Notes under the pieces: model-generated
What the model saw: only the letters and a program-made list of their open reading frames with translations
Told to the model about the DNA's origin: nothing
Databases searched by the model: none
Shown here: piece after piece, positions 9,991 through 44,641 of the stretch
Layout of the letters: every line of letters starts with the position of its first letter
Position numbering within the stretch: position 1 is the first letter of the stretch
Program-made: the position numbers and the translations under genes
Assembly (NCBI RefSeq): GCF_026015625.1
Contig: NZ_JAPDVG010000001.1
Coordinates: 3,090,501-3,154,500 of the forward strand
Reading direction: 5' to 3'
Source of the DNA: Segatella copri
GTDB taxonomy: Bacteria; Bacteroidota; Bacteroidia; Bacteroidales; Bacteroidaceae
DNA length: 64,000 bases

Positions 9991-10040
9991 CTTGTTGTAT
10001 TTTAAAAGTATATATTTGTATGTTAATGGGGTGTTGTCAT

Positions 10041-10106
10041 TAGGCTCGGCAGACCTGCTGACTGCAGTCGGCAGAGCTGCTGACTAGGCTCAGCAGAGCT
10101 GCCGAG
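10041..10106. repeat. 22-bp tandem array A (3 units)
   Basis: Three units start at 10041, 10063 and 10085, sharing the core CGGCAGAGCTGCTGAC with substitutions. Unit 1 begins TAGGCTCGGCAG, and CTGCCGAGCCTA at 10099-10110 is its perfect 12-bp inverted copy, so the whole array can fold as one hairpin. It lies upstream of the minus-strand esterase. Confidence 0.85.
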
Positions 10107-10115
10107 CCTAGTGGA

Positions 10116-10203
10116 AATCATCAAGAAGCAGTCTGCTTGAACCTCAGATACTGTCTCTCTGAACCTCAGATACCGACTGCTTGAACCTCCTAATCTATAT
10201 CTT
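10116..10203. repeat. 22-bp tandem array B (about 4 units)
   Basis: TGAACCTCAGATAC recurs at 10138 and 10160, and TGAACCTC again at 10182, spaced exactly 22 bp. A degenerate unit at 10116 shares the unit ending (AGTCTGCT). The sequence is unrelated to array A but the period is the same. The last unit runs into a -7 box. Confidence 0.8.
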
Positions 10204-10205
10204 TG
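10198..10205 (+). promoter_or_regulatory. Orphan -7 box
   Basis: TATCTTTG fits the Bacteroidetes -7 consensus. No plausible protein gene lies directly downstream; a terminator-like hairpin follows at 10305-10335. Confidence 0.4.
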
Positions 10206-10209
10206 CCCC

Positions 10210-10340
10210 AGCTCAGGCGTATCCTTGTGCCAGATGAGCCGTCTCGTTACGTTTATTCAGCCGCATTGTTATACTTGCTCAGCCGCCTTGTTGACCATGT
10301 TTTTCGTTTAAGGTCTCAATTTGCGACCTTAAACGTTTTG
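10210..10340 (+). ncRNA. Candidate short non-coding transcript
   Basis: About 130 nt bounded by an orphan -7 box (10198) and a hairpin, CGTTTAAGGTC paired with GACCTTAAACG (10305-10335), followed by TTTTGCTTTT. Inside are two CAGCCGC(A/C)TTGTT segments. No convincing reading frame is present. This is a guess from promoter plus terminator only. Confidence 0.25.
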
Positions 10341-10353
10341 CTTTTGCATACCT

Positions 10354-10497
10354 TTATCTCAAATGTGGTGCAACTTCTCCATTAGGTAAAAGAATTCCTG
10401 CCCTAATTAAAAAGGCACGTGCAGCTTCTTTACTGGCAGTAGAAGCCTTTCTTGCAGCCTCTAATCTTTCTTGTCTTTTGCTATCAAATAAATCCAT
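10354..10497 (-). CDS. Orphan copy of the 47-aa partner protein
   Basis: This 47-aa frame starts MDLFDSKRQERLEAARKAS and ends GEVAPHLR. It is identical in protein sequence to 16987-17130, with one silent change. As there, it has an exceptionally good ribosome site (AAGGAGGT before the ATG) and the same repeated leader. Homology to the other copy begins at its stop codon and extends upstream, so the ART-like gene that follows the other copy is absent here. The middle (RLEAARKASTASKEAARAFLIRAG, read as two parts) looks helical and basic. Function is unknown; an antitoxin or immunity-like role is inferred only from pairing with the ART-like gene at the other locus. Confidence 0.7.
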   Translation of the reverse strand: MDLFDSKRQERLEAARKASTASKEAARAFLIRAGILLPNGEVAPHLR

Positions 10498-10535
10498 ATT
10501 CTACCTCCTTGTTTTAAAAGTTGAACATTTCTTCT

Positions 10536-10667
10536 GCAAAGATTATGCAAACGAGCGCAATGTAAGCTTGCTTACAGATTGCCGAGCGCCGCTAATCTTC
10601 TGCAAAGATTATGCCAGCGAGTGCAATGAAAGTTTACTTTCAGATTGCCGAGCGCCGCTAATCTTCT
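10536..10667 (-). repeat. Two 66-bp leader repeats with a covarying hairpin
   Basis: Two units of exactly 66 bp. Each contains GCAATG..ATTGC around an inner stem: TGTAAGC/GCTTACA in the first unit and TGAAAGT/ACTTTCA in the second. Two stem positions differ, each with its partner changed to keep pairing. The same unit occurs twice at 17169-17300. It lies between the promoter and the 47-aa gene, so it would be in the 5' leader. Confidence 0.85.
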
Positions 10668-10668
10668 G

Positions 10669-10676
10669 CAAAGATA
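10669..10676 (-). promoter_or_regulatory. -7 box of the orphan 47-aa gene
   Basis: TATCTTTG on the minus strand immediately upstream of the 66-bp leader repeats; conserved in the second copy at 17302-17309. Confidence 0.6.
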
Positions 10677-10855
10677 CGCTTTTCTTCTGAAAGATGCAAA
10701 GAATTATTGAAAAATGTTTGAGGATGAGGGAAATAAAAAGAAAAACAAAAAAAACGGGTCATCACCAGCATCGAATAATCTGGGAGAGGGCTTTACCGGG
10801 ACAGCGCTGCAAAGATAATAATTAAAATGGAATATGCCAAAGATCTTTTCGAAAA

Positions 10856-10965
10856 ATTACGTCCCGACGTATCTGTTGCTACGTCGGGACGCGTCTGTTG
10901 CTACATCGGGACGTAGGAAATGCTACGTCGGGACGTAATTTTTGCTGCATCGTGGGAGGTTTTTC
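10856..10965. repeat. 22-bp tandem array C (5 units)
   Basis: Units start at 10856, 10878, 10900, 10922 and 10944. The shared core is GCTACGTCGGGACG; the first unit carries the central triplets inverted (ACGTCCCGACGT), so units 1 and 2 can form a hairpin. The fifth is degenerate (GCTGCATCGTGGG). The rest of 10677-11072 holds no gene I can support. Confidence 0.88.
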
Positions 10966-11150
10966 GATAAAGAGCATAGAAAAGCACTAAAAAATGAATA
11001 GAAAATAAGCGTTTTTGCTCAATGTTTTCAACCTTTTAGCTCCAAAAACACCTCTAAAACGCCCGAAAATCGCTGTTTTTGTAAGCGTCTCCGCGTTTAT
11101 ACCTTGCATAATTCAAAAAAAAGCAGTAACAGCTGATTAAACTAATGCTG

Positions 11151-12731
11151 TTACTGCTTTTTCCATCGGTCAGGAAGTAAGTCTCTATATTTTTTCAATG
11201 GGGTATTGGGTTGCCATTCTGCAGTCTTTTCTATTACGTCGCATATGTATTCAAACAGATTAATGCCATTCAGCCTGCATGAGATGGCGATGGAATATAG
11301 GATAGCCGCCCGGCTTGCTCCTTCGTGCGAACCAAAGAACATTGAGTTTCTTCTTGATAGTGATATGTACCTCTGGATTCTCTCAATATAGTTGTTATCG
11401 AGAGCCGTATCACCTCTTTTGAAGATGTCACAAATGGCATTATATTCATTAAGGGCATAACCGACCGCCTGCGCCAAGGTAGACTTGGGCAGCAAATCCT
11501 TCCTGGAAGATATTTCCTCCAGTTTCTCCAATAAATCCTGTAAAATGTCCGGTGCATATGACTGCCGATAGGCTAGATGGCCTTCAACGGTCCATCCATT
11601 TACCCCAACCTTATGTTTTTTGTCTTCTCGATAAAATCTGTTGAGGATATCTACGACTTCCTGAGCATCCTTGTCTTCCTTGCCGCAGTCGATGAAGTCT
11701 CTCTTGACATGCTGTAGACAGGCGATTCTCATAATGTCAGGATAAGCATCCGACTCCAGTTTCCGGTAAGGAGCATATGCATCACTCTGTATGGTACCTT
11801 TATAATCTGAGAATACGTTAAGTATGACCTGCTCAGAGCGTGAACCATCCTCATATACGAAGAAGACAAGTCCCAATTTAGACGCACTTACAGCCCAGAG
11901 GTAGCCTTTCTTCGACCCCTTGTCTGTAGGCTTTGTCTTGGCTAACAGCACTTTATGGTATGTCTCGTCTGCCGAGACATAATCCTGCTGCAACACTACT
12001 TGGCAGATAGCCTTATAGAAGTTTTCCAGTACATCAGCACTTCTGGCAATCAACTTGTTTGCCGTAGCTTTCCTTAACGTAAACCCATTGTCGGCAAAGT
12101 ATTTGGTAATTCGCTCTACCGGCATGGAATAGATGTATCGCATCTGCAGGAGTCCTGCTGCAAAGGAAGGTGAATAGGAAGAATTCAACAACAGAGCCGG
12201 CGGAGTTTTCCCCGGATACATGATACTTCCATCAGTATAAGTGTTGATGTGATACACGGTCTTGATGAATTTGATGGGTTCCATGCTGTAACGTATACAG
12301 GTACGAGTTCCGAAGAGACGCAACGTCTTCAAAAGCCCTGCATCCATGACTGGATCTATCGTAACATGCACCTCTTTCATCTCGTAATGCATGTCACGCT
12401 TGGCACCGTTGTTTTTGCGTGCCTTTCTCTTTTCGGCCTGCTCTGTTTTCCTCTTGTCAAATTCCTCCTGGGTCATCGAGTCTTGTGGATTCTTTTCCTG
12501 ACGTTCGGACTTCTTGCCTGAAACGAGCTTGCCGAGTGCCTTGTTCTGACGATTCGCTTTGTCAATGGCGATTCCTTTCTGGACGAGCAGTTCTTCTAAT
12601 GACTTTATACGTTCAATGAGTTCGTTGACCTGTGTAGTCAACGAACTCACCGTAGCATTAGCTTGCTGAAGCTGTTCGTTTGCAAGCTGAAGCTGTTCCT
12701 TTAAAAGTACTATAATTTCGTCCTTTTTCAT
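11151..12731 (-). CDS. tnpC: IS66 transposase TnpC
   Basis: From the ATG at 12731 the protein is 526 aa, the usual size. It has an N-terminal leucine-zipper-like coiled coil (LLKEQLQLANEQLQQANATV), a zf-IS66-like and helix-turn-helix region, then the DDE catalytic core: DYVSADETYH (Asp, near 253), TIQSDAYAPY (Asp, near 315) and NNYIERIQRY (Glu, near 445), ending with the IS66 C-terminal segment GSHEGASRAA. The first possible ATG (12776) is disfavoured because the -7 box TACCTTTG (12736-12743) lies between it and 12731, leaving almost no leader. It cuts and joins IS ends. No internal stops are seen. Confidence 0.95.
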   Translation of the reverse strand: MKKDEIIVLLKEQLQLANEQLQQANATVSSLTTQVNELIERIKSLEELLVQKGIAIDKANRQNKALGKLVSGKKSERQEKNPQDSMTQEEFDKRKTEQAEKRKARKNNGAKRDMHYEMKEVHVTIDPVMDAGLLKTLRLFGTRTCIRYSMEPIKFIKTVYHINTYTDGSIMYPGKTPPALLLNSSYSPSFAAGLLQMRYIYSMPVERITKYFADNGFTLRKATANKLIARSADVLENFYKAICQVVLQQDYVSADETYHKVLLAKTKPTDKGSKKGYLWAVSASKLGLVFFVYEDGSRSEQVILNVFSDYKGTIQSDAYAPYRKLESDAYPDIMRIACLQHVKRDFIDCGKEDKDAQEVVDILNRFYREDKKHKVGVNGWTVEGHLAYRQSYAPDILQDLLEKLEEISSRKDLLPKSTLAQAVGYALNEYNAICDIFKRGDTALDNNYIERIQRYISLSRRNSMFFGSHEGASRAAILYSIAISCRLNGINLFEYICDVIEKTAEWQPNTPLKKYRDLLPDRWKKQ

Positions 12732-12735
12732 AGTG

Positions 12736-12743
12736 CAAAGGTA
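12736..12743 (-). promoter_or_regulatory. -7 box before tnpC
   Basis: TACCTTTG on the minus strand ends four bases before the tnpC ATG at 12731, suggesting a leaderless transcript and supporting that start. Confidence 0.4.
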
Positions 12744-12832
12744 CGAAAAAATATCGAGATATGCAAGTATTTTCAAATATTTATTTTTATTATCTTGCTG
12801 ATATACAATACGTTAAACACAGCATAGCAAAG

Positions 12833-13180
12833 CTATAAGTTAAGCCGTTTTCTATATCTCATACTTTTCAGGCAAATTCCGCTCATGATGGCAGATAGCG
12901 TCTTGTAAGGCATTTTGCATTGTTTGCTTTGGGGATCAAAGAATGGTAATTCAAAGGTTCCTCGCTCCAGTCGCTTCTGATACAGCAAGAAACCGTCGCC
13001 ATCCCATTTTAGCATTTTTACCTGCTGGCGATTCTTTGAGAAGAAGATGAAGACGGCACCACCGAGTGGCGGCAGCTCCATCTCCGTCCTCACAATCTGG
13101 TACAGGCCATTTATGCCCATGTTCATTCGGACATATCGCTGGCAGACGTAATACTGGGTGTTTTCGTTTAATCCAAACAT
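12833..13180 (-). CDS. tnpB: IS66 accessory protein TnpB (Orf2)
   Basis: This 115-aa protein has the typical IS66 Orf2 pattern: MNMGINGLYQIV, GAVFIFFSKNRQQVKML and DGDGFLLYQKRLERGTFELP. Orf2 is needed for efficient IS66 transposition though its role is unclear. It overlaps the end of tnpA by 13 nt, suggesting coupled translation. Confidence 0.95.
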   Translation of the reverse strand: MFGLNENTQYYVCQRYVRMNMGINGLYQIVRTEMELPPLGGAVFIFFSKNRQQVKMLKWDGDGFLLYQKRLERGTFELPFFDPQSKQCKMPYKTLSAIMSGICLKSMRYRKRLNL

Positions 13181-16986: not shown

Positions 16987-17130
16987 TTATCTCAAATGTG
17001 GTGCAACTTCTCCATTAGGTAAAAGAATTCCTGCCCTAATTAAAAAGGCACGTGCTGCTTCTTTACTGGCAGTAGAAGCCTTTCTTGCAGCCTCTAATCT
17101 TTCTTGTCTTTTGCTATCAAATAAATCCAT
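16987..17130 (-). CDS. 47-aa protein, first gene of the ART-like operon
   Basis: The frame MDLFDSKRQERLEAAR... to GEVAPHLR is 47 aa and is too short for usual gene finding. Support: a strong ribosome site AAGGAGGT seven bases before the ATG, unusual in Bacteroidetes; 2-nt spacing to the ART-like gene; and an identical protein at 10354-10497 with a silent change. The sequence is rich in Ala, Arg, Lys and Glu and likely one or two helices; the end RAGILLPNGEVAPHLR may be a short folded tail. Function is not recognised. As the upstream partner of a possible toxin it could neutralise it, or act as its regulator or specificity factor. Confidence 0.75.
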   Translation of the reverse strand: MDLFDSKRQERLEAARKASTASKEAARAFLIRAGILLPNGEVAPHLR

Positions 17131-17168
17131 ATTCTACCTCCTTGTTTTAAAAGTTGAACATTTCTTTT

Positions 17169-17300
17169 GCAAAGATTATGCCAGCGAGTGCAATGAAAGT
17201 TTACTTTCAGATTGCCGAGCGCCGCTAATCTTCTGCAAAGATTATGCCAGCGAGTGCAATGAAAGTTTACTTTCAGATTGCCGAGCGCCGCTAATCTTCT
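17169..17300 (-). repeat. Two 66-bp leader repeats, second locus
   Basis: Two nearly identical 66-bp units carrying the TGAAAGT/ACTTTCA hairpin; same family as 10536-10667. They lie between the -7 box and the 47-aa gene. Confidence 0.85.
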
Positions 17301-17301
17301 G

Positions 17302-17309
17302 CAAAGATA
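17302..17309 (-). promoter_or_regulatory. -7 box of the ART-like operon
   Basis: TATCTTTG on the minus strand directly upstream of the leader repeats. It gives a 5' leader of about 165 nt. Confidence 0.6.
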
Positions 17310-17489
17310 CGCTTTTCTTCTGAAAGATGCAAGGAATTTTGGGAAAATGTTTGAGGATGAGTGAGATAAAAAGAAGAATTAAAACCCCGGGGTCATCACC
17401 AGCATCGAATAATCTGGGAGAGGGCCTTACCGGGACTGCGCTGCAAAGATAATAATTAAAATGGAATATACCAAAGATCTTTTCGAAAA

Positions 17490-17593
17490 ATTACGTCCCG
17501 ACGTAGCTACGTCGGGACGCGTCTGTCGCTACGTCGGGACGTAGGAAACACTACATCGGGACGTAATTTTTGCTGCATCGTGGGAGGCTTTTC
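17490..17593. repeat. 22-bp tandem array, duplicate of array C
   Basis: Same array as 10856-10965 but unit 1 has lost 6 bp; later units start at 17506, 17528, 17550 and 17572, keeping the 22-bp period. Substitutions differ from copy C, so the arrays are evolving separately. Confidence 0.85.
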
Positions 17594-18030
17594 GATAAAA
17601 AGCATAGAAAAACACTAAAAATTGAATAGAAAATAAGCGTTTTTGCTCAATGTTTTCAACCTTTTAGCTCCCATAACGCCTCTAGAACGCCCGAAAATCG
17701 CTGTTTTTTGCAAAACGTGGCAATAGGTGACAATAAGGTGATAATAAAAAAGCCCCTTATTGCCACCCGTTATACTCTTATTATCAGCTACTTATAATAA
17801 GCGTGGCAAATGTTGCAATAAATATGAGAAAACATGTTCCTATGTGTAGAGGATCTTTGTTTCTCAAACATTCCATCAAAAACCGATTTGTATAAATACT
17901 ATTGCCGTCGTTTCTTCTTGGGAAAATGTTTGAGAGAGATAAAAAGAAAATTTTCGACGACATCTATTGTTTGGCCTTTTGATCTACATGCAGTGATTAC
18001 AAAGTCACAATTCATTTATAGTATTTCGGT

Positions 18031-41457: not shown

Positions 41458-41561
41458 ATTTTTACAATGATTTGAATAAGCTTCCGCAATGCTTTGAATG
41501 CCTTTCCTCAAGCGTTATTGGCGTTTGAAGAATGCGTCATAAGTATCTGAAAGAAGTAACT

Positions 41562-41605
41562 GAAGTTGTTTGGAGATACAATAGAAGTTGTTGGAACAGT
41601 AAGTA
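41562..41605. repeat. 22-bp array D (2 units)
   Basis: GAAGTTGTTTGGA at 41562 and GAAGTTGTTGGAA at 41584, exactly 22 bp apart; the second half of each unit is diverged. Confidence 0.55.
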
Positions 41606-41620
41606 TCTCGAAGCGCACAA

Positions 41621-41708
41621 CAGTTGATATGCGGTCGCACATCAGCTGTTGTGCGCTTGTCTTTCAGCTGTTGTGCATGCGTAGAACAGCTGTTGTGCGG
41701 CTTTTTAA
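41621..41708. repeat. 22-bp array E (4 units)
   Basis: Units start at 41621, 41643, 41665 and 41687. The last three share CAGCTGTTGTGC exactly; the first is diverged (CAGTTGATATGCGG). GCGCACAACAG at 41613-41623 is the inverted copy of CTGTTGTGCGC at 41646-41656, so a hairpin can form. Confidence 0.88.
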
Positions 41709-44451: not shown

Positions 44452-44641
44452 CCTGTGTAAATAATATTCTAGAAAGAGATTATCTAGAAGAAACTCCCGG
44501 AAAATGGGGAAAGAAGAGATTGAGAATTTTTCCTTAAGGGAAATAAAATCTTCCCTTAAGAGATATTTTTCACCACATTTGGTCTGTAAAGTTATTTCTT
44601 TATAAATTTCGCAGCACCTATTTTCCTATCCTCAAAAGCAA

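Follow-up and report, generated by a model that had tools for sequence, protein, structure and literature searches.

Tandem repeats of constant size and variable sequence have already been described in bacteria. According to Subirana and Messeguer, such repeats are 20-23 nt long in individual species of many bacterial groups, several families share each length, and there is no obvious function; why some bacteria carry repeats of constant length and changing sequence is printed there as unexplained, and two helical turns together with a protein lattice have already been proposed for these satellites (PMC8161180). That study requires at least four repeats and treats Bacillus; Prevotella and the string "Bacteroid-" are absent from its main text (PMC8161180). 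Tandem arrays are also described as parts of composite elements: BrickBuilt, of the Bacteroidetes relative Porphyromonas gingivalis, is a dispersed intergenic MITE containing a 23-nt minisatellite of variable unit number, with a leader and a tail that have inverted ends (PMC4596501); BOX, of Streptococcus pneumoniae, joins fixed modules to a variable-number tandem array, has stem-loop potential, and has terminal inverted repeats (TIRs) that are similar to those of an insertion sequence (PMC3049150). Of known composite elements, these two come nearest to those considered below. In the iterons of R6K-type plasmids, tandem sites of about 22 bp place a protein on one face of the DNA; these iterons share one sequence and are bound by one Rep protein, unlike the arrays of Segatella copri, whose sequences differ between families. 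To what is already known of constant-size, variable-sequence tandem repeats, the S. copri arrays add a new genus, a link to a MITE, and evidence that spacing outlasts sequence. Among the literature matches listed, whose scope mostly left subscription papers outside, there is no report of 22-bp arrays of Prevotella or Segatella.

The window (the entire stretch of 64,000 nucleotides of S. copri DNA that was analysed) contains a TrmB-like protein with its best relative in S. copri (99% identity), and the comparison genome nearest to it is G001. A lag scan with no period preset (threshold 17/22 matches) found six regions at lag 22, one at lag 21, and none at each of the remaining lags between 16 and 32; 40 dinucleotide shuffles of the window generated a mean of 0.03 regions per lag, and a maximum of 1. 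TRF also assigns period 22 to array A (10041-10102) and array B (10133-10189). The 22-bp period that a sequence-only reading of the window had seen as common to all of its arrays is thus borne out, and the coordinates that it assigned are correct to within a few bases. Chance, or an artefact of reading, can be dismissed almost entirely: some arrays do consist of only two or three units, but the shuffles and three samples of related genomes refute it.

In each of these three samples, no intergenic TRF period above 14 is as common as 22 (the coding or intergenic status of arrays being set by our own ORF filter). Intergenic arrays at periods 20/21/22/23/24 number 2/3/13/0/3 in 27 systematic 20-kb stretches of G001 (540 kb), 0/0/9/0/0 in 20 stretches of G017 (400 kb; plus four at period 44), and 4/9/29/1/6 at 80 TrmB-flank loci (1.40 Mb; the best 80 of 520 confirmed loci, from named genomes that are nearly all Prevotellaceae). 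What the sequence-only reading had named as counting against itself, a period of 22 no commoner than 20, 21, 23 or 24 in the intergenic repeats of related genomes, occurred in none of the three. Thirteen further stretches of G001, targeted on the window's counterpart or on matches to the A family and accordingly biased by design, gave 2/3/28/3/1. The resemblance to the constant-size satellites is twofold: repeat length is concentrated at 20-23 nt in the non-coding DNA of the three S. copri-related samples, and several families of unrelated sequence share one length within a species, the units of A, B, C, E and G all being found at 22 bp in G001 (PMC8161180). Measured against the published requirement of at least four repeats, A has three units, C and E have about four, and B has five by profile, but these are diverged; the link to a MITE and the test for register under drift are further points of difference from that paper (PMC8161180).

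Two qualifications should be made. Outside the family, 20 stretches from eleven genomes in other families of the order (382 kb) yielded single intergenic arrays at periods 22 and 21: period 22 is unsupported as an order-wide rule, and the signal looks concentrated in S. copri's group. Nor does the "exactly 22" of the sequence-only reading hold as a law; 22 is the mode only, because the periods that TRF calls include 23 for family F and 21 for a further family.

If neighbouring arrays have different cores, how many independent events do they represent? Unrelated sequences there certainly are, but the events are fewer than had been assumed, because A and B are one element, the arrays at 10856 and 17490 belong to a single family, and those at 41562 and 41614 are probably one element. 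The first of these is a dispersed element made up of an F array, an 86-bp hairpin core and a B array. Its core in the window (10033..10118, + strand; TRF, an alignment of 86-bp slices, fold z) consists of three near-palindromic 22-bp units inside an 86-bp imperfect inverted repeat. A cores are found at 11 places in G001, 6 in G168, 2 in G059 and, as a partial copy, 1 in G169 (reverse-strand and secondary matches merged by hand); on its left side the core has between none and about 9 F units, mostly of 23 bp, and on its right side the B array. Sixteen of 21 A-core rows, some of them orthologous, align across 86 columns (L254, L256, L278, L279 and L280 were left out), and the fold predicted for the alignment is a single long hairpin that leaves the variable centres of the units unpaired; the inverted ends seen in this family belong to the core itself. 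Array B (10136..10289, + strand), whose diverging 22-bp units keep a constant register after A, is present as read but longer: five in-register units, starting at 10136, pass a leave-out profile, and later ones lie in a TRF array at 10246-10292. In the search for empty sites, the window's A-B locus proved to have different neighbours in G167 and G168. Near the counterpart of this locus in G170 (L250, from another clade), a different palindromic array, of the CCGTTCCGTGAT type and with steps of about 22 bp by eye, lies upstream of a GDSL lipase gene, between an A-tract and a T-tract.

Both TRF and the lag scans are biased towards arrays that are free of indels; the spacing of E units and the register of B units were therefore tested without an assumed period between units. 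E units located in this way are 22 or 44 bp apart in all 26 of 26 multi-unit clusters (three of which represent one orthologous site). The B profile was trained on the first three units of unrelated rows, with units cut at 22-bp steps, and applied to 20 of the 21 A-anchored rows (L279 having been dropped beforehand). With related rows left out of training, 79 of 91 matches are in register; for matches beyond the training units, 28 of 36 are in exact 22-bp register, or 19 of 25 when each related group is represented by one row, compared with an expectation of 1 in 22. The reversed-sequence control gave 12 matches in all. (A looser version of the test, in which related rows were kept in training for some copies, yielded 80/93 and 29/38.) The identity of B units is 0.67 between neighbours and 0.55 between units that are five apart. 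There are exceptions to the register: it is off by one base across five units of row L268, and it is lost in L269 and L278.

Changes of length between strains are mostly changes by whole units. The G001 ortholog of array B has one 22-bp unit more than the window does, and the conserved sequence of the next gene lies 177, 133 and 177 bp from A at one orthologous site in L272, L258 and L254, respectively: a difference of exactly two units, though the sequences of the units differ. B units that drift and yet keep register support the fixed period under changing sequence that the sequence-only reading had seen, and with it a tighter constraint on spacing than on sequence. Between the window and G001, indels and substitutions stand at 33:178 in other intergenic DNA and at 2:40 in arrays (the two indels having sizes of 22 and 6), the array class also taking in two 66-bp repeats, and one 45-bp stretch accounting for 6 of the 33 intergenic events; against the L031-L033 set the proportions are alike, 1:7 in arrays (the one event being of 44 bp) and 20:140 in other intergenic DNA. 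The deficit of indels in arrays is by itself weak because the events are few and the ratio is equal against L031-L033. A further lag-22 region, made up of TTCCTTAAGG palindromes (44523..44566, no strand assigned; lag scan), shows a 44-bp length difference relative to the same S. copri set.

It can be argued that all of this is the work of a mutational ruler: replication or repair slippage would prefer steps of about 22 bp, so that neutral minisatellites arise from any local sequence and decay, and serve no function. Gain and loss of mostly whole units between strains would follow naturally, as would the unrelated unit sequences of different species, and the absence of an indel deficit against L031-L033 is consistent with it. 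But several of the S. copri arrays come from dispersed families rather than from a local origin, register persists at 55-67% unit identity, and the enrichment of dyad symmetry described below is not expected from slippage alone. On balance, we regard a purely neutral origin as rather unlikely.

The C family is represented twice in the window and by other copies in G001. The first array (10850..10948, no strand assigned; TRF) consists of about four TACGTCGGGACGTA-like units, of which the first is inverted, is flanked by an A-tract and a T-tract, and forms one long hairpin on both strands. The second (17490..17578, likewise; lag scan, sequence comparison, fold z -5.0) lies inside a segment that is present twice. 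The "yet other cores" that had been read at 10856 and 17490 are not distinct: they are of the same family, with a common TACGTCGGGACGTA. The twice-present segment (10354-11080 and about 17000-17700) contains a short minus-strand ORF beginning MDLFDSKRQERLEAARKAS and two tandem 66-bp repeats, which, by their motif, we take to resemble Bacteroides-type promoters, followed by the C array. IS66-type transposase genes occupy 11151-13180 of the window, where the alignment to G001 breaks (between 11080 and 13660); the two flanks of the break adjoin in G001, with an overlap of 8 bp.

The E array (41614..41706, + strand; TRF, Pfam, fold z) belongs to a different dispersed family from the F-A-B element. 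In the window it lies downstream of a Methyltransf_4 (trmB-like) gene, as four units around GCACAACAGCTGTTGTGC, the last of which ends in a T-tract. The E palindrome is plentiful in 2 of the 150 genus genomes searched, G001 (43 strand matches) and G059 (41), ten others having one or two. Terminal inverted repeats of the GAGGGTGTGTCATAAG type, that is, of IS1182 type, enclose eleven E copies (9 in G001, 2 in G168). Their lengths are 223, 224, 226 (three copies), 227, 245, 247, 248, 270 and 292 bp: all 11 are at most 3 bp away from 226+22n, 6 of them exactly so, and it is the number of internal tandem units that varies. A 1785-bp insertion sequence in G059 (L320 285-2069) has the same ends as the E copies, and its ORFs, transposase pieces in broken frames, match the model of IS1182 with E-values of 7.5e-32 and 1.2e-18 that miss its curated cut-off. 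(G059 is apparently the same assembly as S. copri Indica, match positions being identical.) Judged by these ends, many copies of the E family are MITEs, with inverted repeats matching those of an IS1182-type insertion sequence. The terminal inverted repeats and variable internal unit number are shared with BrickBuilt, which is, however, one 23-nt family, while here there are several families at 22 bp, with IS1182-type ends on copies of one of them; the likeness is one of description (PMC4596501). The same applies to BOX, an element of another phylum (PMC3049150).

The interpretation of E as a MITE is weakened on several counts. A search for end pairs in ten G059 stretches holding 11 E clusters returned no bounded copy. 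The flanks of E copies show no clear target-site duplication, and searches with orthologous flanks found no clean empty site, the flanks of two copies giving dispersed repeats or a 98-bp match. The window's own copy (41530-41706) has a candidate left end, followed by two degenerate variable units and then by the four units of the E array; its right end was not found. The left end is a candidate decayed terminal inverted repeat, by eye (GAATGCGTCATAAG against GAGGGTGTGTCATAAG; 41530..41543, + strand). The degenerate units (41562..41605, + strand) are what survives of the separate array claimed at 41562: two weakly similar units only (15/22 matches by eye, under the threshold of 17/22), which, by their resemblance to the variable arrays of S. 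copri elements, are probably the remnant of the E element's variable array. Several E copies have an A-tract as their left flank and a T-tract as their right flank, which would suit insertion into a terminator stem or replacement of one. Two other small elements, L300 1127-1520 and L311 1501-1753, have the same IS1182-type ends with other contents, such as ACGCCCTGAAAGGGCAGAAGCTCC repeats.

Palindromes in tandem might also call to mind REP/BIME-like repeats mobilised by a RAYT (Y1) transposase, the more so as G001 has two Y1_Tnp genes, and the 7-kb stretch that contains them also has a C-type array (L323 6474-6531). However, E copies carry IS1182-type ends, no core of A, E, F or G turned up in that 7-kb Y1 stretch, and Y1 genes are present in 19 of 24 relatives searched, yet few of the genomes searched for A and E cores are rich in them. 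A RAYT origin is, we think, highly improbable. (The two Y1 transposase genes, L323 2128-2691 and 4119-4682, are identical, each lying beside a nearly identical larger ORF.)

Dyad symmetry exceeds that of shuffled units in 52 deduplicated arrays of 21-23 bp (mean z 0.85, p 3e-5), and there is no such excess in 55 arrays of 14-20 bp (mean z -0.09). Individual arrays of the window fold to different degrees: z is -8.8 on the + strand and -6.1 on the - strand for A, -6.9 and -8.6 for C (10850..10948), and -5.8 and -6.2 for E; B, whose units have weak dyads, folds weakly (z -2.9). The inverted units and hairpins previously read in A, C and E are accordingly real (z -5.0 to -8.8), but are largely due to units that are near-palindromic. 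By hand count, 6 of 23 pairs of neighbouring, different arrays have dyad registers that differ by no more than 1 bp modulo 22 (2.6 expected); an automated quality filter left 3 pairs, 1 of them agreeing. A hand calculation had put the dyads of the window's A and B arrays in register, and was set aside when the automated phase disagreed. Sequence-directed curvature was likewise discarded, AA/TT phasing at the half-unit period being absent (mean z 0.08).

Does this symmetry operate in RNA? The palindromic arrays, if transcribed, could serve as series of hairpins, chiefly as (bidirectional) intrinsic terminators or as 3'-end stabilisers. The strong folding of A, C and E favours such a function, and so does one site at the 3' end of trmB that bears, depending on the strain, a single 22-nt A-tract/T-tract hairpin (S. 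copri Indica, L031), a 44-nt hairpin (L033) or four units (the window, G001 and L032; hairpin lengths by eye), with T-rich sequence after the last stem. Yet in L034 the trmB 3' end has another long hairpin (by eye) without a 22-bp array. In the A core, the pair 16-71 varies over 16 rows as GU 6, AU 6 and GC 4, but none of 29 predicted pairs departs from its commonest type at both positions in these rows, and several are broken in 1-4 rows. Gaps between convergent genes hold 16 of 51 arrays against a background of 18.8% (p 0.03, a mild enrichment), but 14 of the 51 lie between divergent genes. Terminator-like hairpins accompany only 17 of 72 arrays, compared with 22 of 144 controls, an excess too weak for termination to be retained as the general function. 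B folds weakly, and the arrays have no Rfam match in six sources. An RNA-level function is, in sum, an unlikely account of the arrays.

The explanation that we prefer, and to which we would give about an even chance, is that small dispersed elements of intergenic DNA, of the BOX/BrickBuilt kind, contain the arrays as modules, E being a MITE in many of its copies and F-A-B a constant hairpin core with variable 22-23-bp arrays on either side, and that the spacing of the units is held as a DNA lattice. It takes up the observed dispersal, the terminal repeats on 11 E copies, the mostly whole-unit changes of length, the register under drift and the enriched dyad symmetry. The proposed steps are these: 1) an IS1182-type transposase would have spread the E family, acting in trans; 2) slipped-strand or unequal exchange would change the number of units; 3) the units, about two turns apart, would line up as a lattice along a single face of the DNA, to which a protein or a factor that recognises structure would presumably bind; 4) such a lattice would tolerate changes of base but not of spacing, and spacing would consequently be held. 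A two-turn lattice is the leading candidate for what may keep the spacing fixed, although it is weakened by the equal indel ratio against L031-L033, the weak dyads of B, the absent AA/TT phasing, and the existence of F at 23 bp and of another family at 21, and also by the one-base shift of L268, the loss of register in L269 and L278, and the dyads of the window's A and B, out of phase by the automated measure.

Extending the argument beyond S. copri puts it on more slippery terrain. Throughout the Prevotellaceae and, going by the literature, in other phyla also, unrelated intergenic elements might be selected for a length of two helical turns, with mobile elements supplying the arrays and with a component that is indifferent to sequence (a nucleoid protein, or a factor recognising hairpins or cruciforms) reading spacing and dyads; we consider this broad version doubtful. 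What S. copri does offer is a tractable case: a fixed core anchors the dispersed copies, so that substitutions can be counted against changes of spacing, and in the copies examined register outlasts sequence. If spacing is selected, then a factor that reads it should exist and can be sought directly. Unrelated 22-bp arrays adjoin in Xylanibacter brevis also (L109 16816-17032), just as they do in the window.
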